A stretch of 64,000 nucleotides of DNA from Haloarcula rara (GTDB lineage Archaea; Halobacteriota; Halobacteria; Halobacteriales; Haloarculaceae): contig NZ_CP119785.1 in the NCBI RefSeq assembly GCF_029338235.1, forward strand, positions 930,001-994,000. Direction: 5' to 3'. The notes beneath the pieces are model-generated. The model ran no database searches and was not told the origin of the DNA. It saw only the letters and a program-made list of their open reading frames with translations. Positions 24,446 through 33,169 of the stretch are shown piece by piece. How positions within the stretch are numbered: the stretch's first letter is position 1; every line of letters begins with the position of its first letter. The translations under genes and the position numbers were made by a program.

Positions 24446-25207
24446 CTACCAGCCGAGCTCGACGGCCGTGCCGTCCTCCCGGCAGCGTTCGAGTTCGTGT
24501 TTGGCGGTCATACCCGCAACCTGTGGGGTTCGTGACCGGCCGACGCCGACCTTTAGCTCGACGCCGACGGCGTCGTGAACGTGGTCGATAGCGTCGCGGT
24601 AGGCCGCCCTGTCCATGGCCGAGCAGACGGCGATGACGTTGTCGCCGCCGACGAAGAACGAGAGCGAATCGTGGGCCTCGCGCATGTGTTTCATCAGCTC
24701 TGCGTACCCCTGTTCGATCTCGATGAACGTGTCGAACTCGTTGAGCTGGTCGGTGTACTTCCCGGTCGCGTCGTCGACGTCGAAGTGGGCGATTTGGACG
24801 TCGGAATCGGTCCGGTCGGCGTCGGCGAGCGTTTCGCCCCGGAGCACTTCGCGCCGGCCACTGTCCTGGGCGCTCCCGGATTCCTGTAGGCGGCGCGAGG
24901 CGACGCCAAGCGCCGCGGCCGGCGTCTCCCCGGTCGCGATACTCACGCTCGAGGTCACGGGATAGCGGTTCCCGAGCGACGCCTGGATTCGCTCGTGTTC
25001 GGCACGGTCCAGCCCGTTCGTGATGGCTACCATGTTGTCGAACCGCCCGAAGAAGGCGTATCCCTCGCGGGCGCCGACCAGCTGGGCAACGTCGGCAAAG
25101 AGCCGCGACTGCAGCGTCTGGAGGTCGACCTCGCGGCGGGGTTCGGGCGTCGTCGTCCAGGGGCCGTAGTTGTCTATCTGGATCAGAGAGACCTGCGTGT
25201 TCGTCAC
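24446..25207 (-). CDS. arfA: GTP cyclohydrolase III (IIa)
   Basis: A 253-residue enzyme that converts GTP to the formylamino-pyrimidine FAPy nucleotide, the archaeal entry to riboflavin and F420 biosynthesis. Paired palm-like domains show the family motifs: VSLIQIDNYGPWT, FFGRFDNMVAI and the second-half repeat FFVGGDNVIAVCS, then GVELKVGVGRSRTPQVA. Asp residues in FDN and GDN bind metal. It is the last gene of a minus-strand operon with an alcohol-dehydrogenase-like reductase, a PTPS homologue, a glycosyltransferase and a methyltransferase, 63 bases downstream of the methyltransferase. In that context it may also supply a pathway other than riboflavin. Confidence 0.92.
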   Translation of the reverse strand: MTNTQVSLIQIDNYGPWTTTPEPRREVDLQTLQSRLFADVAQLVGAREGYAFFGRFDNMVAITNGLDRAEHERIQASLGNRYPVTSSVSIATGETPAAALGVASRRLQESGSAQDSGRREVLRGETLADADRTDSDVQIAHFDVDDATGKYTDQLNEFDTFIEIEQGYAELMKHMREAHDSLSFFVGGDNVIAVCSAMDRAAYRDAIDHVHDAVGVELKVGVGRSRTPQVAGMTAKHELERCREDGTAVELGW

Positions 25208-25270
25208 GGTGACTGCTCAGGAGTGCGCTCGTATCGGTGTTTGGGAAACGGCCAGCCCCACCGCTTGCCC

Positions 25271-26203
25271 TCAGCCCGCGAGCGCTCCCGGCCGCTCGAC
25301 GCGACCCAGAAAATCGAGCTGGTGGGTCACGTATAGCAGTTCGCCGTCGGCGACCTGCTCGCGGCGCCGGGCCAGCCAGTCGTCGAGCCCCTCGGCACCG
25401 CCTAGCTCGCCGACCGCTCCCTCGACGGTGTCGAGGATGTGCCGGAGGAAGTACGCCTCGTCGCCGGGGTAGGTCCCGTCGACGGGTCTGACGACCCAGT
25501 CCGAGCCGGCCACCCCGAGCAGCGTCGCCCCGCCGAGGCGCTGGAGGCGCTCGAGGACGGCCCCGCCCGCGCGGCTGTCCCCGCCCGGCTTCGCGTCCAT
25601 GTGGTCGTGGTAGCGGCCTTCGACGGCGCTGTCAGCCGGATGTGGGGGCCGGAACCGCGTCGCTCCGTCGAAAGTGATAGGAAAGTAGTACAGCCCGCCG
25701 GGGGCCACAGTACCGAGGAGCGTCCCCAGCGCCTCCCGGTCGAGGATGTCGAGCAGCGCCGCCCCGACGAGGAGGTCGTACCCGGGACGACCGCCGTGGC
25801 CCACCGCGTCGTGGCCGTCGGCGTAGTCGATAGCGTCGGCGACGACGGATTCGACCGTCACCTGTCGCGTGCCGTCCTCGAGGGTGATGGGCGCGTCGTC
25901 GTCGACGGTCACGTCGCTGTCGACGGCCCACTCGGTCAGATAGCCGGCCATCGCGGCCACGTTGTCGGCCTGGACGTCGAGTGCGACGTACTCGACGTCA
26001 CACTCGGGGAGGACGTCCCAGTCGAGAAACCGGGTAAGCATCGTCCCGATGCCGGCCCCGATTTCGAGGACACGCAACGGGCCGCTGTGTTCGGCCGCCC
26101 GCGCCGCCAGTTCCGCGCGGAGCGACTCGACGAGACGACGGTCGAGTGCGCGGTCGTCTACGGTCCGTTTCGCGCGGAGATACCGCTGGAAGGAGTCAGT
26201 CAC
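25271..26203 (-). CDS. Class I SAM-dependent methyltransferase
   Basis: A 310-residue Rossmann-fold methyltransferase. Motif I is VLEIGAGIGTML at about 45-56, followed by EYVALDVQADN (acidic residue binding the SAM ribose) and DLLVGAALLDILDREALG, then GGLYYFPITFDG. The substrate is not evident. Its start overlaps the glycosyltransferase stop by four bases (ATGA), so the two are translationally coupled and probably act on the same product. The C-terminal part (DDWLARRREQVADGELLYVTHQLDFLGR) is unlike the core fold and may bind substrate. Confidence 0.82.
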   Translation of the reverse strand: MTDSFQRYLRAKRTVDDRALDRRLVESLRAELAARAAEHSGPLRVLEIGAGIGTMLTRFLDWDVLPECDVEYVALDVQADNVAAMAGYLTEWAVDSDVTVDDDAPITLEDGTRQVTVESVVADAIDYADGHDAVGHGGRPGYDLLVGAALLDILDREALGTLLGTVAPGGLYYFPITFDGATRFRPPHPADSAVEGRYHDHMDAKPGGDSRAGGAVLERLQRLGGATLLGVAGSDWVVRPVDGTYPGDEAYFLRHILDTVEGAVGELGGAEGLDDWLARRREQVADGELLYVTHQLDFLGRVERPGALAG

Positions 26204-27270
26204 GCTACCGCCTCCACGTCGACGTCGGCAACAGCTGACAGCAGCCCGCGGACCCGAGCGGTCGTCTCGTCCCAGTCCGGATGGCTCTCGTATCGCTGTC
26301 TGGCCGCCCGACCCATCGCGGCCAGCCGGTCGCGGTCGCCCGCCAGCGTCTCGATGGCCGCGGCGACGGCAGCCGGGTCGTCGGGGTCGACGAGCGCGCC
26401 CGTCTCGCCGTCGGTGACGACGTCGCTCGCACCGCCGGCCCGCGAGGCGAGCGCGGCCAGCCCGAAACTCATCCCCTCCAGATAGACGATACCGAACCCC
26501 TCGTACCGGGACGGGAGCGCGAGGGCGTGGCCGGCATCGAGGGTCGAAGCCAGCGCGTCGTCGGACAGACGACCGGTGAAGCGGACCCGGTCCTCGAGGC
26601 CCGCTTCGTGCACTCGCGACCGGACCGACCGGGCGTAGCGCTCCTCGACCGGGCGGCCCACGACCGTGAGTTCGGCGTCGGCGTCGGCGGCCGCGAGCCC
26701 GTCGACGAGCGTGTCCAGCCCCTTTCGGTGCTCGATGTTGCCGACGAAGACCAGCCGAAGCGGCCCCTCGTGTGCCCGTGTGTCGATTCGCGCCGGGTCG
26801 ATAGCGGGGTCGAAGCGGTCGCCGGCCGGTGGGGCGACGACGGTCGACCCGGCGTCGACGCCGAGGTCGGTGACGACGGACTGCGTGGTCGTGCTGTTGC
26901 AGACGACGCCGTCGACGGTGTCGAGGTAGCGGCGCTCGACAGCGCCGTAGAGTGAGCGGAAGGGCCGGGGTTCGCTCGCCCGCAGGTGGTGGACAACGCT
27001 GACGACGGGATAGCTGAGGTGGCGGTTCGTCCGGACGAGCGACGGGTGGGCCAGTTCGTCCTGGAGCATCACGTCCACGTCCACGTCGAGTCGCCGCCGG
27101 AGGTCGCGCGAAGCGTTGTCGAGCAGCCCCCGGCCGTAGTCACGCCAGGGGAGTTCGACCACCTCGACGGTGTCGCCGGCCCGACGCAGCCCCGCCACGA
27201 GCTGTCGGTCGTAGCGGAACCCGCCGGAGCGCTCGTCGAGACTGCCATACAGCGTCAGCCCGACCCTCAT
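26200..27270 (-). CDS. Glycosyltransferase family 4 protein
   Basis: A 356-residue retaining GT-B glycosyltransferase of the GT4 type. The N-terminal acceptor domain begins MRVGLTLYGSLDERSGGFRY. The donor domain carries LVFVGNIEHRKGLDTLVDGLA, then ALPSRYEGFGIVYLEGMSFGLA, the E-x7-E motif that binds the nucleotide sugar. No membrane segment is present. It lies within the pterin-type operon, overlapping the methyltransferase and preceded by the 78-base hairpin element, which ends one base before its ATG. Confidence 0.88.
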   Translation of the reverse strand: MRVGLTLYGSLDERSGGFRYDRQLVAGLRRAGDTVEVVELPWRDYGRGLLDNASRDLRRRLDVDVDVMLQDELAHPSLVRTNRHLSYPVVSVVHHLRASEPRPFRSLYGAVERRYLDTVDGVVCNSTTTQSVVTDLGVDAGSTVVAPPAGDRFDPAIDPARIDTRAHEGPLRLVFVGNIEHRKGLDTLVDGLAAADADAELTVVGRPVEERYARSVRSRVHEAGLEDRVRFTGRLSDDALASTLDAGHALALPSRYEGFGIVYLEGMSFGLAALASRAGGASDVVTDGETGALVDPDDPAAVAAAIETLAGDRDRLAAMGRAARQRYESHPDWDETTARVRGLLSAVADVDVEAVA

Positions 27271-27348
27271 ACGGTTCGTTGTAGCGATTCACCGGGACGC
27301 GCCGGCCTCGGGGTCGGCGCTATCCGGACATACGCTACAGTACTCCGT
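27271..27348 (-). repeat. 78-base hairpin element, copy 2
   Basis: The entire gap between the PTPS stop (27350) and the glycosyltransferase ATG (27270) is a 78-base inverted repeat with outer ACGG/CCGT, then TGTAGCG/CGCTACA, then CCGG and CGCGCCG/CGGCGC arms. Read on the minus strand it matches copy 1 at 485-562 in the same sense relative to the flanking genes. The outer arms differ between the copies while still pairing in part within each copy, which suggests selection for RNA structure. Confidence 0.85.
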
Positions 27349-27349
27349 C

Positions 27350-27727
27350 TCATAGGGCGGCGTCGTAGCTCGCGGCGGCCTCGTCGTCCTCCCAGACGGT
27401 GACGGCCAGTTCCGTGACGGTGTCGTCGGTGACGATCTCGGTCACGCGTTCGAAGATGACGCGGGCGAACCGCTCGACGCTGGGGTTGTCCCCCGAGAAC
27501 TCCGGGAGGTCGTTGAGCGTCGCATCGCGATACCGGGCCTCGATACCCGACAGCGCCGCTTCCGCGTCGTCGATGTCGACGAGGTAGTCGTACTTGTTTA
27601 ACTCCGGGCCGCGAAAGCACAGTTCCACCTCGTAGTGGTGGGAGTGGGGCTCTCCTTCGGGGCCGGGGTCCGGGACGGTGAGATAGTGCTGTGCCACGAA
27701 GTCGGCCAGCACTGTGGTCGAATACAT
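27350..27727 (-). CDS. 6-pyruvoyl-tetrahydropterin synthase (PTPS/QueD) homologue
   Basis: A 125-residue protein with the T-fold of PTPS/QueD enzymes. The zinc ligands align with His14 (AQHYL) and His28/His30 (PHSHHY). The acidic pterin-anchoring residue aligns with Glu113 (VWEDDEAAASY). The usual catalytic Cys between the first His and the HxH pair is missing, and the catalytic Asp-His pair reads Asp68-Ala69 (RDATLNDLPEF). It may therefore catalyse a different reaction on a pterin-like substrate. It is flanked by a reductase and a glycosyltransferase on the same strand. Confidence 0.82.
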   Translation of the reverse strand: MYSTTVLADFVAQHYLTVPDPGPEGEPHSHHYEVELCFRGPELNKYDYLVDIDDAEAALSGIEARYRDATLNDLPEFSGDNPSVERFARVIFERVTEIVTDDTVTELAVTVWEDDEAAASYDAAL

Positions 27728-27785
27728 ACCCGAACCCAGGGACGCGAGCCTCCTAAATCTGGAGGAAGAAGCGTCGGTCCGAGAG

Positions 27786-28772
27786 TCAGTCGTAGGTGAG
27801 CGTGACCTGAACCGCGTCCTCGGGCCGCTCGTCGAGCAGGCGGTACGCTTCCGGCGCGCGCCCGACGTCGAAGGTGTGGGTGTGCAGCGCCGAGAGGTCG
27901 GCCTCGGCCAGCCAGTCCCGCACCTCGTCCAGCCGGCGGTCCTTGTCCCAGCGGTCGGCGTGGTCCGGGTCGATGCGGCTCACCTGACTGGACCGGACGC
28001 GGATGTGGCTCCGGTGGTAGGCGTCGCCGAGGTCGAGCGAGACGTCCTTCGTGCCGTACCACGAGCCGACGACGACCTGGCCCGCGTAGCCGGTAACGTC
28101 GATAGCGTCGTCGAGGGCCGACGGGTTCCCCGACAGCTCGAAGGCGACATCGACCGGCTCGGAAAGCTCGTCGAGGTCGCCGGGTGCGACCGCTCGGTCG
28201 GCGCCAAGCGATCGCGAGAGTTCGCGACGGGGGCCACAGGGGTCGACCGTGACGAGCTGGGACAGCGGGAACTCCCCGAGCAAGGCGGTCGTCAGCAGCC
28301 CGACCGGGCCCTGGCCGAACACCGCGACGCGCGCGCCAAAGCGCGGCCGGCCGTCCATCACGAAGTTCGCCGCCGCCTCGGCGTTGGGGATGAGAACCGC
28401 TGTGGCCGGCGCGAGCGTCGTCGGAACGAGCGTCTCGGGGTCGGCGAGAAAGTGGCTTTCGTGAGGGTTGAACGCGAAGACGCGGCGGTCGAGCCAGTCC
28501 TCGGCGACCCCCTCACCGACGGCGGTGACGCGGCCGACGGCGGCGTAGCCGTACTGCAGCGGGTACGAGAAGGTGCCATCGAGGGCGTCGATGGTCTCGT
28601 CGGTCGACAGCTCCGAGGAGACGTCTCCGCGGTACACCAGCAGCTCCGTCCCGGGACTGATACCCGACCGTTCGGTCCGTACGCGGACCTGGCCGGGGCC
28701 GGGGTCGGTGATGGGGCGCTCACGGACCGCCACCGATTCGTCGCCGGTGAAGTACAGCGCCCGACCGGTCAT
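27786..28772 (-). CDS. Zinc-binding-type alcohol dehydrogenase (MDR) with altered metal site
   Basis: A 328-residue medium-chain dehydrogenase/reductase. The NAD(P) fold is marked by VAVFGQGPVGLLTTALLGEFPL, and the C-terminal half contains FELSGNPSALDDAIDVTGYAGQVVVGSW. The usual catalytic-zinc stretch (GxCGTD) reads SGISPGTELL around 36-45, so the zinc Cys is replaced. This resembles the BchC-like branch of the family. It is the first gene of the pterin-type operon, 58 bases upstream of the PTPS homologue, and probably oxidises or reduces the pathway intermediate. Confidence 0.83.
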   Translation of the reverse strand: MTGRALYFTGDESVAVRERPITDPGPGQVRVRTERSGISPGTELLVYRGDVSSELSTDETIDALDGTFSYPLQYGYAAVGRVTAVGEGVAEDWLDRRVFAFNPHESHFLADPETLVPTTLAPATAVLIPNAEAAANFVMDGRPRFGARVAVFGQGPVGLLTTALLGEFPLSQLVTVDPCGPRRELSRSLGADRAVAPGDLDELSEPVDVAFELSGNPSALDDAIDVTGYAGQVVVGSWYGTKDVSLDLGDAYHRSHIRVRSSQVSRIDPDHADRWDKDRRLDEVRDWLAEADLSALHTHTFDVGRAPEAYRLLDERPEDAVQVTLTYD

Positions 28773-28892: not shown

Positions 28893-29762
28893 TTAGAGAT
28901 AGCCCAGCGCGTCGAGCCGGTCGCGGTCGGAGTCGGCGCCGTACACCCGCGAGACGGGGAGGGTCTCGGGCGGTTCGATCGAGGGCACCCGACTCGCGCG
29001 GTCAACGCCGGTCGTCTCGGCCCACGGGACGGCAAGCAGCGCCGGGACAGGCGTCTGCATCGGGTGGCCGTACAGTCCCCACTCGCCAAACAGGTTACCG
29101 TGGTCGGCCGTGACGGCGACGCGGCCGTCGACGTTGTCACACAGGGTGGCCACCTCCTCAAGGACGTACCGGAGGTTCGCCTCGTAGGCGGCCCAGACGC
29201 GCGCTGTCGTCAGTTCTCCCTGTCGCAGCGACACCCACGGGTTCGCAGTGTTGCTGTGGCTCCCGGTACGGGCCATCCCATCGTCGCCATCGAGCGGGTC
29301 AGGGACAAACGGATGGTGGGGTTGCATGTAGTGGACGACCAGCCACTCGGGGTCGCGCTGGCGGCCTGCGGCGATGGCGCGGTCGGTGACCGCCGCCGCC
29401 GGCACCGTCCCAAGGTCGTCGTCCCAGGCGTACTTCCAGACCTCGTCCAGCGCAGCGAACTCGTCGGCGTCGAGATACCGGTCGGTCCAGGTGTTCCCGG
29501 TGACCATCACTGTCCGTCCGGTCTCTGGACGGCCGAGAAACGTGTTCTCCAGCCACTCGGAGGAGGAACTGCCGACCGAGCGGACAGTCTCGACGGCGTC
29601 CAGAAAGTCGATGTCGGGGGCGACCGACTCCAGGAGGTCGGCCCGACAGGCGTCGAGTACCACGAGGACGTCCCACTCGCGGTCGAAGACGCTGGTGCCG
29701 TAGTCGAGCCGTCGGCCGACGGCCTGCAGCACGCGCAGGTAGGCCGTCCCGAGCCGGCTCAT
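28893..29762 (-). CDS. Alkaline phosphatase superfamily (sulfatase-like) protein
   Basis: A short member (289 residues) of the sulfatase-like branch. The N-terminal metal motif is WDVLVVLDACRADLLESV. WLVVHYMQPHHPFVPDP and VAVTADHGNLFGEWGLYGHPM supply the other metal ligands (Asp-His and His). It is shorter than typical sulfatases and lacks a signal peptide. The ATG at 29762 (MSRLG) is chosen; a GTG at 29777 would add five residues. The tail DRLDALGYL matches those of the other superfamily members here. It is divergent from the oxidoreductase fusion. The likely role is modification of a phosphorylated or sulfated glycan. Confidence 0.78.
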   Translation of the reverse strand: MSRLGTAYLRVLQAVGRRLDYGTSVFDREWDVLVVLDACRADLLESVAPDIDFLDAVETVRSVGSSSSEWLENTFLGRPETGRTVMVTGNTWTDRYLDADEFAALDEVWKYAWDDDLGTVPAAAVTDRAIAAGRQRDPEWLVVHYMQPHHPFVPDPLDGDDGMARTGSHSNTANPWVSLRQGELTTARVWAAYEANLRYVLEEVATLCDNVDGRVAVTADHGNLFGEWGLYGHPMQTPVPALLAVPWAETTGVDRASRVPSIEPPETLPVSRVYGADSDRDRLDALGYL

Positions 29763-29824
29763 CCCCGGTTCTCTCACGGTCCCCGTTGGGTTCGTACCGA
29801 CAAAATCCCACCGGCGGGAACTCT

Positions 29825-31833
29825 ATGTACCTCCCGACCCCCCGTTCCCGTGTGCACTGTCTGTTCGTCGGCGCTGGCGCGATAGCCGACGCGTACGCGG
29901 CCGGCCTCGCGGGGAGTCCGCTCTCGCTCGCCGGCGTCTGTGACCTCGACGGCGACCGCGCCGCCAACCTCGCCGAGTCCCACGACTGCCCCGCCTTTAC
30001 CGACCTCGACGCCGCGATGGCCGCCGTCGACGCGCCGCTGGTCGTGAACCTGACGAGCCACGCTGCCCACGCCCCGGTGACCCGCACAGCGCTGCAGGCG
30101 GGCAGGCACGTCTACTCCCAGAAGCCGCTGGCGCTCGACGGCGAGACGGCCGGCGAGTTGCTCGCGCTCGCCCGGGACCGGAATCTCGCACTGGGCTGTG
30201 CGCCCGGCACGCCGCGGGCGCCGTCCCAGCGTCGGGCGGGCCGACTGCTCGCCGACGGCCGGCTCGGTCCCGTCCGCCTCGGCTACGCCCACGCCCACGT
30301 CGGCCGAGTCACCGACTGGCACGACCGCCCCGACTCCTTTCTCGACATCGGGCCGCTGTACGACGGCGGCGTCTACCCGCTGGCCCTGCTGGTCGCGTGG
30401 TTCGGGCCCGTAGCGCGGGTCCGCGTCGCCGACGCGATAGAGCCCTGGCCCGACCGTGAGCCCCGTCGCCCGTCGGTACCGAGCCACGTCGAGGCGACGC
30501 TCGAGTTCGCCTCGGGGCCGGTCGTCCGGCTGACCGCGAGCTTCTATGCCCCCCACCGAAGTCGGGAGTTCTACGGGCTGGAGCTCCACGGCGACGACGG
30601 CTCGCTCTATCTCGAAGGCACGGGCGCGATGACCGACAGCCCCGGTGCGCTCCGGTTCGGTCGGGTCGGTCGGGCGTACACGAACGTGCCTGCACAGACG
30701 CCGACGCGGCCCTACAGGTACGTCGACGCCGTCGAACGTGTCGCAGCGAGCGTCGACGCTGGCCGTCCGTCGCGGGCGACCGGGAAGCGCGGCGCCCACG
30801 TCGTCGCCGTCTGCAACGCCATCGAGCGCGCCGCCGAGACGGGCGGGCCGGTCAGTGTGAATGCCTCCGGCGCGACGAGCGAGCCGGTGCCGGCTCCAGT
30901 TGTGTCGCCGGCGACGCGGGAGTCCCCGTCCCCACCCACGCCGTCGGCGAACTCGCTTCGCCTGCCACCCGTCGGCTTTGGCTGTTCGCGCTACCGGGAC
31001 GGGGAGTACGTCGACCGGGTCGACTCCGTCGCGACGGCGCTGGACGCGGGCTACCGCCTGCTCGACAGCGCCGAGCTGTACGGCAACGAACACCGCATCG
31101 GCGACCTGCTCGCGCGCCGGGGAGCCCCGACCGCGACACGCTGTTCGTCCTCGGCAAACCCTGGCGCACGAACCACCGCCGCGAACACATGCTGGCGGCG
31201 GCTCGCGGCAGCCTCGCCGAACTGGGCCTCGACGCGTTCGACTGCTACGCCTTGCACTGGCCGGAAGCGTGGGCCCACTGCGGCCCCCTGGAGCGGCTGG
31301 CCGAGAAACCCGTCGAGCGTCAGGAAGCGCTGACCTTCCCCGAGGGCGCGGACGGCGCCATCGAGACGGTTGACGTGCCGCTGGCACGGGCGTGGGAGAA
31401 CCTCGAAACGCTGTACGAGCAGGGACTGGCGCACACGCTGGGCGCCTGCAACGTCTCGACGGCCCAACTGGAGACGGTGCTTGCGACGGGGACGGTGCGG
31501 CCCGCGCTCGTCCAGGTCGAGCGCCACCCCTACCAGCCACAGTCCGACCTGGTCACGTTCTGTCACGATCGGGGCATCCGGGTCGTCGCTCACTCGCCGC
31601 TGTCGGCGCCGGGGCTGCTGGACGAGCCGGTGCTATCTGATATCGCTCAATCCCGGGGCCTCTCGCCGGCCGGTGTCGTCGTCGCGTGGAACGCCACACA
31701 GGGCGTGGTCCCTATTCCGTCAAGCACGAAGTCGGCACACGTCGTCTCGAACCTGGCCGCCGCCGGCGAACGCCTGTCTGAGGCGGAGATGGCCCGCATC
31801 GACGCGCTGCGGGACCCGACCTTCGAGCGGTGA
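29825..31833 (+). pseudogene. Gfo/Idh/MocA oxidoreductase fused to an aldo/keto reductase, one frameshift
   Basis: The N-terminal half (about residues 1-360) is a Gfo/Idh/MocA NAD(P)-dependent sugar oxidoreductase: Rossmann motif VGAGAIADAYAAG, conserved Lys100 in SQKPLAL, and FLDIGPLYDGGVYPLALL. After a Pro/Ser/Thr linker an aldo/keto reductase begins near 375 (LPPVGFGCSRYRDG), with LDSAELYGNE (Asp, Tyr), the catalytic Lys in VLGKPWRTNH and CYALHWP (His). The frame breaks at the G run 31119-31122, which appears one base short. Restoring it gives a single 669-residue protein. No stop separates the domains, so this is a true fusion. Confidence 0.8.
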
Positions 31834-31874
31834 GCCGACCGCACCATTATACTCGTGAGTGCCCACTGTCACGT

Positions 31875-32267
31875 ATGGCCACGGCCGACTCGCGGGGACT
31901 GTCCCTGGACGTAGCGTCGCTGACCGGACTGCACTGGCTGGGCATCGTCGCCGCCGTCGTGTCCGCGGCGGTCCATCTCCTGCTCGGTGTCAGGATGCTC
32001 CCCTCGGGGATGGGCATCAGCTTCGTCCTCGCCGGACTGGGGTTTCTGGGCGCCGTTGCACTCGTTCTGCTCGATTACCGTCGCCGGGCGGTGTACGCCG
32101 TCGGCGTTCCCTTCACACTCGTCCAGATACTGCTGTGGTACTACGTCAACTTCGTCTCGCTCGGGAAGTCCTTCCCCGCCGACGTCGGCACGCTCGGCGC
32201 CGTCGACAAGGTCGCCCAGGTCGTCCTGCTTTCCGTGCTGGTCGCGGTGCTCCGGGAGTCGGCGTGA
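31875..32267 (+). CDS. Small four-helix membrane protein
   Basis: A 130-residue integral membrane protein with helices at about 22-38, 46-64, 70-95 and 107-127 and almost no loops. It is a conserved haloarchaeal family of unknown function (DUF7475 from memory). Typical parts are SAAVHLLLGVRMLPSGMGISFVLAGLGFLGAVAL and QILLWYYVNF. The ATG at 31875 is preferred because the longer frame adds a non-hydrophobic stretch that overlaps the upstream stop region. Confidence 0.75.
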   Translation: MATADSRGLSLDVASLTGLHWLGIVAAVVSAAVHLLLGVRMLPSGMGISFVLAGLGFLGAVALVLLDYRRRAVYAVGVPFTLVQILLWYYVNFVSLGKSFPADVGTLGAVDKVAQVVLLSVLVAVLRESA

Positions 32268-32404: not shown

Positions 32405-33169
32405 ATGGCCGGGCGCCAGGGTGAGCGGCCGGCACTGCTCGGGCTGCGCTTTGGCCTCCCGGTCGTCGGTGCGCTCTGTCTGGGCGCTGCAGTCGGCGTC
32501 GCCTTCCCCAGCGACGAGCCGAGCTACTGGGCGCTCCATCCGGCGGCCGTCGCCGGCTGTTGCTGGGCCGGCCAGTTCTGGCTCGCCGGCCGCGGCCTCG
32601 ATATCACTCGCATCCCCGGCTCGCCGTACCGGCACATGTTCGGCGTCGCCAACAGCCTGACGCTCCTCCGTGGCGGGCTCTACGCAGTCGTCGCTAGCTT
32701 CGTCGTCGTCCCAGCCACGACCACGCTCGCCTGGGTCCCGGCGCTGTGTTACGGCACAGGCGTCGTGCTGGACAAACTCGATGGCACCGTCGCCCGGACC
32801 CTCGGCGAGGAGACGGCCCTCGGCGAGCGCCTCGACATGGCGGTCGACACTTTCGGGTTCGTCGCCGCCCCGCTCGTGGCAGTGCTGTGGGGCCGCCTGC
32901 CCGTCTGGTACCTCACTATCTCGGCCGCCCGGTACGTCTATCTCGCCGGCATCCACTACCGGCGCCGCCGCGGCCGACCGATACACGACCGCCCAGACAG
33001 CGACCTCGGGAAGTACCTCGCAGGTGTCCAGATGACCTTCATTACTATCGCGCTCGTTCCAGCCGTGCCGAGCGGCCTGGTCTTCGCCGTCGCACCGGCC
33101 GTCCTCGCCCCGTCGCTCGCGGTGTTCGCAAGGGACTTCTGCTACGTGAGCGGGCGGCTTCCGCGTTGA
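32405..33169 (+). CDS. CDP-alcohol phosphatidyltransferase family protein
   Basis: A 254-residue membrane enzyme that transfers a phospho-headgroup or phosphatidyl-like moiety from a CDP-alcohol. The complete signature D-x2-DG-x2-AR-x8-G-x3-D-x3-D is present: Asp123, Asp126-Gly127, Ala130-Arg131, Gly140, Asp144, Asp148. About six membrane helices surround it. In archaea such enzymes build archaetidyl-inositol, -serine or -glycerol phosphates. It lies just upstream of a membrane metal-dependent hydrolase and a PAP2 phosphatase. Confidence 0.9.
   Translation: MAGRQGERPALLGLRFGLPVVGALCLGAAVGVAFPSDEPSYWALHPAAVAGCCWAGQFWLAGRGLDITRIPGSPYRHMFGVANSLTLLRGGLYAVVASFVVVPATTTLAWVPALCYGTGVVLDKLDGTVARTLGEETALGERLDMAVDTFGFVAAPLVAVLWGRLPVWYLTISAARYVYLAGIHYRRRRGRPIHDRPDSDLGKYLAGVQMTFITIALVPAVPSGLVFAVAPAVLAPSLAVFARDFCYVSGRLPR

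Follow-up and report, generated by a model that had tools for sequence, protein, structure and literature searches.

Gene layout and conserved neighbourhood

A GTP cyclohydrolase III (ArfA) encoded beside a PTPS homologue, a glycosyltransferase, a methyltransferase and an atypical dehydrogenase raises the question of what such a gene set would make. Based on comparison of the locus with its archaeal and bacterial relatives, we propose, with a probability of about 0.72, an accessory pathway present in both domains, in which GTP would be converted through FAPy into 2,5-diamino-6-ribosylaminopyrimidinone 5'-phosphate (DARoPP) and thereby diverted from riboflavin and F420 synthesis into an undescribed metabolite.

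The window, that is, the whole 64,000-nucleotide stretch of Haloarcula rara DNA analysed here, contains five minus-strand open reading frames between positions 24446 and 28772, whose coordinates and sequence agree with the tight gene order described in an earlier note on this DNA. They encode the cluster's own ArfA, predicted to form FAPy from GTP (24446..25207); a class I SAM-dependent methyltransferase (MT) whose family has no Pfam model (25271..26203); a GT4 glycosyltransferase (26200..27270; PF00534, E=1e-34), its gene overlapping that of the MT by four bases (GTGA); a T-fold protein of the PTPS family whose active site is remodelled (27350..27727); and a BchC-like, zinc-independent MDR dehydrogenase or reductase (27786..28772). 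Neither a deformylase gene nor a RibD_C-type reductase gene is present in the window cluster, which counts against the proposed pathway.

Conservation extends beyond the five genes to position 33169. The additional neighbours are an alkaline-phosphatase/sulfatase-superfamily protein on the minus strand (28893..29777; a weak PF00884 match, below the cut-off) and, on the plus strand, a fusion of a Gfo/Idh/MocA oxidoreductase with an aldo/keto reductase (29831..31833), a hydrophobic, membrane-protein-like DUF7475 protein (31830..32267; PF24287), and a CDP-alcohol phosphotransferase (32405..33169; PF01066), the last being a conserved partner in both archaea and bacteria. It is worth noting that the frame of the fusion gene is broken near 31120 in this assembly; the gene is a single 656-codon ORF in 13 relatives.

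Occurrence in haloarchaea and bacteria

Among the 146 genomes of the order that were searched, 77 carry the MT family of the window, and 40 haloarchaeal loci were fetched by means of this gene. The PTPS homologue and the dehydrogenase each accompany it in 34 of these 40, the CDP-alcohol phosphotransferase in 26, the DUF7475 gene in 21 and the alkaline-phosphatase-like gene in 14, all counts being uncorrected for phylogeny. The gene set is no chance assembly, and the data support a conserved pathway, as the earlier note had argued. Neither of the two outcomes that would have spoken against this idea came true, namely genes that fail to co-occur elsewhere, or an arfA that is the sole copy with the other four genes scattered in relatives.

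The same dehydrogenase-PTPS-GT4-MT cluster, usually with the phosphotransferase (74/89 loci), was found in 89 bacterial loci from Actinomycetota, Pseudomonadota, Acidobacteriota and Gemmatimonadota. There GTP cyclohydrolase II (GCH II) often stands in the place of ArfA, which matches the suggestion in the earlier note that some actinobacteria carry similar sets with the one cyclohydrolase replacing the other. Profiles built from the haloarchaeal proteins rank the bacterial cluster genes above other superfamily members in those loci, with a wide separation for the dehydrogenase (worst cluster match 1e-52 vs 1e-12), a narrower one for the phosphotransferase (3.5e-19 vs 9e-13) and a marginal one for the MT (1.2e-6 vs 1.5e-6). 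Judged by sequence, archaea and bacteria share homologous forms of the dehydrogenase, PTPS protein, GT4, MT and CDP-alcohol phosphotransferase. The same orphan pathway would be kept by half of the sampled haloarchaea and be scattered over at least four bacterial phyla.

The conserved order also bears on whether the genes form one unit. They could instead represent two adjoining modules, one for a DARoPP-derived cofactor (ArfA or GCH II, PTPS, dehydrogenase), the other for a glycolipid (GT4, MT, phosphotransferase, flippase-like protein) and either using the cofactor or co-regulated with it, and indeed the GT4 is missing or stands apart in some haloarchaeal and alphaproteobacterial clusters. 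We consider this arrangement rather unlikely, since the order hardly varies among bacteria (85/89 loci have the GT4 and 84/89 the MT) and genes overlap in the window and its relatives.

ArfA and the exchange of the entry enzyme

The window ArfA is an intact GTP cyclohydrolase III (PF05165, 290 bits, E=2e-86), and its assignment to this family follows from full length, a PRK02240 score above the curated cut-off (404 vs 306 bits) and alignment to the solved Methanocaldococcus jannaschii enzyme (PDB 2QV6; E=3e-62 over 239 residues). The genome also has a second arfA, as had been asked of it, 2 Mb away (G000:C1:2959457-2960176). In the ArfA tree, the partner of the window copy is the cluster copy from a different species of the genus (L033), not the other copy of the H. 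rara genome, and one well-supported clade is made up solely of cluster-associated copies. Within archaea, ArfA entered the cluster on several occasions. By coordinate comparison it lies within 6 kb of the MT in 21 genomes, with a chance expectation of approximately 0.5% per genome (P ~3e-31, uncorrected for kinship), and in 14 of the 15 genomes with at least two ArfA genes, one copy adjoins the cluster or, for a single draft assembly, falls among the cluster copies in the tree.

Alternatively, ArfA could be a bystander, a second riboflavin/F420 gene beside a cluster devoted to something else. It is absent from 27 of the 40 haloarchaeal loci, and in several genomes the single ArfA sits in the cluster and must serve riboflavin as well. 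We nevertheless regard this explanation as distinctly unlikely, given the repeated entry of ArfA into the cluster, the clade restricted to cluster copies, the 8 bases by which the genes for ArfA and the dehydrogenase overlap on two Haloarcula plasmids, and the fact that bacteria and other archaea have GCH II in the equivalent position. The latter enzyme occurs in the clusters of two non-haloarchaeal archaea, in one of which, an archaeal MAG, a single ORF joins it to the dehydrogenase. With ArfA near only 13 of the 40 loci, many haloarchaeal clusters would depend on the housekeeping copy, a point against the proposal. One genome (G137) carries a cluster-type ArfA that is apparently an orphan: a search of its surroundings for other genes of the window gave no match.

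The bacterial entry enzymes fall into two types. All 28 cluster GCH II proteins that lack the switch tyrosine (Met in 18, His in 8, Cys and Ile in one each) are accompanied by a creatininase-family gene, as compared with 7 of the 19 that retain it (Fisher 1e-6, kinship uncorrected). This creatininase resembles a FAPy deformylase, its nearest models being MftE and creatininase, both below their cut-offs, and the RibD-family protein of the bacterial clusters is closest to DARoPP reductases. All versions of the entry therefore probably converge on DARoPP, the one intermediate indicated by the recurrent exchange of entry enzymes. The seven tyrosine-type bacterial loci that carry a creatininase too run against this scheme.

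The idea of a convergent design, put forward in the earlier note, accordingly survives in part: the ring-opening enzyme was exchanged repeatedly for unrelated types, but the downstream enzymes are homologous across domains, so that convergence is limited to the first step.

Active sites of the cluster proteins

The PTPS homologue matches PF01242 (E=4e-26) and falls far below the QueD cut-off. It keeps the zinc-binding His triad and the substrate-anchoring Glu, while the catalytic Cys is replaced by Glu (motif ExxxHSH) and the Asp-His relay by Arg-Asp; Glu at the Cys position with a replaced relay is found in 97% of the 40 archaeal copies as well. The bacterial proteins have the motif AxxxHGA and have lost the third zinc ligand in 89/89 copies; the loss of the catalytic residues thus took two different forms. 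Because the Cys and the Asp-His are gone, the usual PTPS side-chain chemistry, which the earlier note had assigned to this protein, is unlikely.

These data also bear on whether the protein is a QueD or PTPS of a 7-deazapurine, biopterin or folate pathway. The Pfam assignment, the fold, the two or three zinc histidines and the anchoring Glu are shared with that family (COG0720), and databases annotate the protein as 6-carboxytetrahydropterin synthase. Such a role is hardly credible, however: the catalytic residues are replaced in both domains, neither motif fits PTPS-I, II or III (CxxxHGH, CxxxxxHGH or ExxHGH, plus the Asp-His relay) as given in PMC5041015, a distinct QueD-like gene with the motif CxxxHGH is present in the genome, and no GCH I was found in the clusters examined. 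Queuosine and biopterin were rejected as pathways on the same evidence. No relative of the protein was detected in viral contigs, and the PTPS matches in L217-L219 lie outside such clusters.

A link to F420 has been made for the subfamily PTPS-IV in a remark on unpublished work (PMC5041015), DARoPP is an F420 precursor, and haloarchaea and actinobacteria make F420. It is highly improbable, though, that the cluster makes or modifies this cofactor. CofH (FO synthase) scores well above the cut-off in 4/4 actinobacterial genomes with the cluster and below it in all 16 proteobacterial carriers tested, which contradicts F420 as the product in proteobacteria.

The dehydrogenase contains ADH_zinc_N without an ADH_N domain and is closest to BchC. 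The Cys and His-Glu ligands of zinc-dependent alcohol dehydrogenases are not conserved in it; Cys and His are replaced by Ser39 and Tyr76, which do not vary among the 129 homologues compared (40 archaeal, 89 bacterial), and the zinc ligands have thus been lost in both domains.

Alignment shows intact catalytic motifs in the GT4, the MT and the phosphotransferase. The GT4 has two invariant Glu with EX7E spacing (E257/E265) in archaea and bacteria, and the phosphotransferase contains the family motif DxxDGxxAR...GxxxDxxxD as invariant D123xxD126G127xxA130R131...G140xxxD144xxxD148. The MT matches no Pfam or NCBIfam model and has no solved relative detectable by sequence; its AlphaFold model (pLDDT 91) retrieves class I SAM methyltransferases in Foldseek, and the SAM motif (G49/G51/G53 and D76) is conserved in both domains. 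These matches are generic, mainly to enzymes that methylate N, O or C atoms of small molecules, and too mixed to name a substrate.

Proposed pathway

Based on the above data, the cluster ArfA would make FAPy from GTP, as its family strongly suggests. In haloarchaea, FAPy would then be deformylated by an ArfB-type creatininase-family enzyme of the host; the H. rara genome encodes two such proteins outside the cluster and one RibD_C protein. In actinobacteria, a FAPy-type GCH II would be followed by the cluster-encoded creatininase, and elsewhere a tyrosine-type GCH II would yield DARoPP directly. The ribosyl group would be reduced to ribityl by a RibD_C-type reductase, whose gene is part of the cluster in many bacteria, whereas haloarchaea would use a host enzyme. 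The conserved Glu of the PTPS-fold protein may anchor the 2-amino-4-oxopyrimidine, and the protein may catalyse a reaction that neither PTPS nor QueD performs, with the zinc-less dehydrogenase acting on the side chain. Lastly, the GT4 might add a sugar to the product and the MT a methyl group, and the CDP-alcohol phosphotransferase could perhaps couple it to a phospholipid; the outcome would be a glycosylated compound, pteridine- or pyrimidine-like, that is exported or bound to the membrane. This membrane step, overlooked in the earlier note, is probable in view of the phosphotransferase and the flippase-like protein. The GT4, MT and phosphotransferase could also act on a molecule other than the pyrimidine product.

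More specifically, and only tentatively, we envisage a phospholipid-anchored, glycosylated and methylated 2-amino-4-oxo-pyrimidine or pteridine that serves as cofactor or signal, made in both domains through a single homologous pathway with an entry enzyme that was replaced several times (GCH III, FAPy-type GCH II with deformylase, DARoPP-type GCH II). A widespread uncharacterised metabolite probably awaits identification, and a new membrane-bound pteridine, if that is the product, would open a new class among cofactors, pigments or lipid headgroups.

Relation to known systems

We found no literature description of the cluster as a whole. Its closest counterpart is the SCO6650-SCO6655 type cluster of Streptomyces coelicolor, with which it shares a homologous dehydrogenase-PTPS-GT4-MT core and CDP-alcohol phosphotransferase, and to which the window locus belongs by this gene content; the AlphaFold model of the window PTPS has SCO6650 (PDB 3D7J) as its best structural match (TM 0.86). 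The archaeal version differs in having ArfA instead of GCH II, in keeping the PTPS zinc histidines and in lacking a detectable cluster creatininase in most loci (present in 2/40 by tblastn), as well as RibD and LPG_synthase_TM; tblastn also found no flippase-like, cytochrome b or YceI gene of the bacterial clusters in the 40 haloarchaeal loci. SCO6655 is reported to make FAPy (Spoonamore 2006), and SCO6650 is not known to have PTPS activity. The numbering SCO6650 to SCO6655 would fit the order PTPS-GT4-MT-flippase-creatininase-GCH II of S. fungicidicus (L074). The repeated exchange of the entry enzyme renders a long-standing puzzle of Streptomyces, its FAPy-forming GCH II encoded next to a PTPS homologue without the PTPS motif, directly testable in genetically tractable haloarchaea and streptomycetes.

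The locus shares the canonical first enzyme with the archaeal riboflavin/F420 entry (ArfA, ArfB, ArfC), but its arfA is a separate copy whose cluster partners take no part in those syntheses. Creatininase-family deformylation of FAPy, as proposed for the actinobacterial clusters, has a precedent in BrbF, a bacterial formamidase that, unlike the predicted cluster enzyme, serves riboflavin in Rhizobiales (PMC9478397). SCO6655, the probable Streptomyces counterpart, is among the genes anticorrelated with predicted primary flux, which are mostly raised in stationary phase (PMC2853524).

A five-gene cluster and its haloarchaeal relatives

An ORF check and family searches recovered the five minus-strand genes at 24446-28772 that the earlier note had read as an operon, each in the family it had named: an MDR dehydrogenase, a PTPS homologue, a GT4 glycosyltransferase, a methyltransferase (MT) and ArfA (GTP cyclohydrolase III). 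GT4 and MT overlap by four bases (GTGA), as the note had described, and the remaining intergenic gaps are 58 to 79 bases. ArfA is canonical and aligns at 3e-62 with the M. jannaschii enzyme of known structure. The reductase belongs to the MDR proteins but gave no match to the N-terminal ADH domain, and the methyltransferase is without a Pfam model and has the predicted fold of a class I SAM methyltransferase. The second arfA that the note had proposed to look for is present far from the window, as are two creatininase-family genes, one RibD_C gene and another PTPS gene, whose product has the QueD motif CxxxHGH; with these genes the host can presumably produce riboflavin and compounds of the queuosine type even if the cluster is absent. 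Nearby, a Gfo/Idh-aldo/keto reductase fusion gene (window 29831-31833) is frameshifted near 31120 in this assembly, through either assembly error or decay, and forms one uninterrupted 656-codon frame in 13 relatives.

Within the order, 77 of 146 genomes carry MT. Among 40 loci drawn from these, PTPS and the MDR gene are each present in 34, GT4 in 27, a CDP-alcohol phosphotransferase in 26 and ArfA in 13. By coordinate comparison, ArfA lies at most 6 kb from MT in 21 genomes of six families, against a chance expectation of about 0.5% per genome, uncorrected for kinship. In some of the apparent exceptions (loci L204, L206 and L207), ArfA adjoins MDR-PTPS-GT4 elsewhere in the genome. Gene order is variable, with ArfA after MT in the window type and before the MDR gene in another; in two Haloarcula plasmids the ArfA and MDR genes overlap by 8 bases. 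One haloarchaeon (G120) carries two clusters, L043 and L070, one with GT4 and one without.

One clade of the ArfA tree, with strong support, consists solely of cluster-associated copies: 13 rows, one of them (G085) from a draft contig end, that together represent five or more families. Separate, later cluster copies are of housekeeping type; the window ArfA is among them, and its sister is a cluster copy from another species of the genus. Recruitment of ArfA to the cluster therefore happened more than once. Almost every residue that never varies among the housekeeping copies is retained in the window lineage, and the GGDN motif is kept in the divergent clade too. At L203 (genome G137), none of the other cluster genes looked for lies around a cluster-type ArfA, which may be a remnant of a lost cluster.

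The same cluster in bacteria

A tblastn search of plasmids with MDR found MDR-PTPS-(GT4)-MT in a row in Streptomyces, Rhizobium, Agrobacterium, Methylosinus, Thiodictyon, Palleronia and others. Scanning genomes with an alignment of bacterial PTPS sequences gave at least 589 stretches; 80 of these were retained, and they belong to Actinomycetota, Pseudomonadota, Acidobacteriota, Gemmatimonadota and Myxococcota. MDR is present in all 89 bacterial loci compared, with GT4 in 85, MT in 84, the CDP-alcohol phosphotransferase in 74, a RibD-family protein in 59, an LPG_synthase_TM flippase-like protein in 58, GCH II (GTP cyclohydrolase II) in 47 and a creatininase in 39. Prevalence is low (9/296 Actinomycetota and 27/398 Pseudomonadota genomes sampled). 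With profiles built from haloarchaea only, bacterial cluster genes rank first, by a margin over other superfamily members that is wide for MDR and the phosphotransferase and narrow for MT. The cluster is homologous between archaea and bacteria. Streptomyces tendae (G146, the genome of locus L114) has the cluster PTPS twice.

Exchange of the entry enzyme

Bacterial clusters carry GCH II instead of ArfA. GCH II is known to require a tyrosine to deformylate its intermediate; the Streptomyces coelicolor enzyme SCO6655 has Met instead and is reported (Spoonamore 2006) to go no further than FAPy, which is also what ArfA makes. The switch tyrosine is missing from 28 cluster GCH II proteins (Met 18, His 8, Cys 1, Ile 1), and a creatininase-family gene accompanies all 28, versus 7 of 19 with Tyr (Fisher 1e-6, kinship uncorrected). 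Since members of this family deformylate FAPy (ArfB in archaea, BrbF in Sinorhizobium; PMC9478397), the routes would meet at DARoPP (2,5-diamino-6-ribosylaminopyrimidinone 5'-phosphate). The RibD-family cluster proteins consist of RibD_C only and are nearest to DARoPP reductases. A creatininase-family gene also lies near two Haloarcula-group clusters (L033:1436-2185 and L079:2232-2990) and is possibly a dedicated FAPy deformylase.

The exchange is also seen in archaea: one genome of the same phylum, outside the haloarchaeal order, has MT-GCH II-MDR-PTPS-GT4. An archaeal MAG of that phylum, likewise outside the order, encodes a GCH II-MDR fusion as one 601-residue ORF (L213:1918-3720), followed by PTPS and GT4; misassembly of the MAG is conceivable, but the adjoining genes are of archaeal type.

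Unusual middle enzymes

In the archaeal cluster PTPS the three zinc histidines are intact, the catalytic Cys is replaced by Glu (97%) and Asp-His by Arg-Asp; in the bacterial one, Cys and the third histidine are both Ala (100%). Both retain the substrate-anchoring Glu, and their motifs differ from those listed for PTPS-I, II and III (PMC5041015). The best structural match of the window PTPS model is SCO6650 (PDB 3D7J; TM 0.86), a result that may be favoured by the model's alignment rows, which were bacterial members. The zinc-binding Cys and His of MDR are Ser and Tyr in 129/129 sequences. The catalytic motifs of GT4, MT and the CDP-alcohol phosphotransferase are intact.

Discussion

The gene set is conserved and homologous across domains, and its GTP-opening enzymes are interchangeable. 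Our literature search found no account of the complete cluster, of its unity across the two domains or of what it makes. Earlier work on SCO6650 and SCO6655 touches on the bacterial locus. Haloarchaeal ArfA was studied jointly with COG0720 proteins (Phillips 2012, cited in PMC8305020), so a connection between PTPS and ArfA may already have been recognized.

We infer a pathway in which DARoPP would be the branch point and would be reduced to a ribityl compound; PTPS would then catalyze a new reaction, and the product would be glycosylated and methylated. More tentatively, the product might be joined to a phospholipid; the hints are the CDP-alcohol phosphotransferase, the flippase-like protein and neighbours that resemble sulfatases or alkaline phosphatases (the latter in 25/89 bacterial and 14/40 haloarchaeal loci). 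F420 is excluded as the product for proteobacterial carriers. An accessory metabolite would fit the patchy distribution and the location on plasmids. A published list of genes whose expression mostly rises in stationary phase includes SCO6655 (PMC2853524). Among bacterial loci L088-L163, YceI-like lipocalin genes in 13 proteobacterial loci and cytochrome b genes in 5 hint at a redox or isoprenoid-lipid link.
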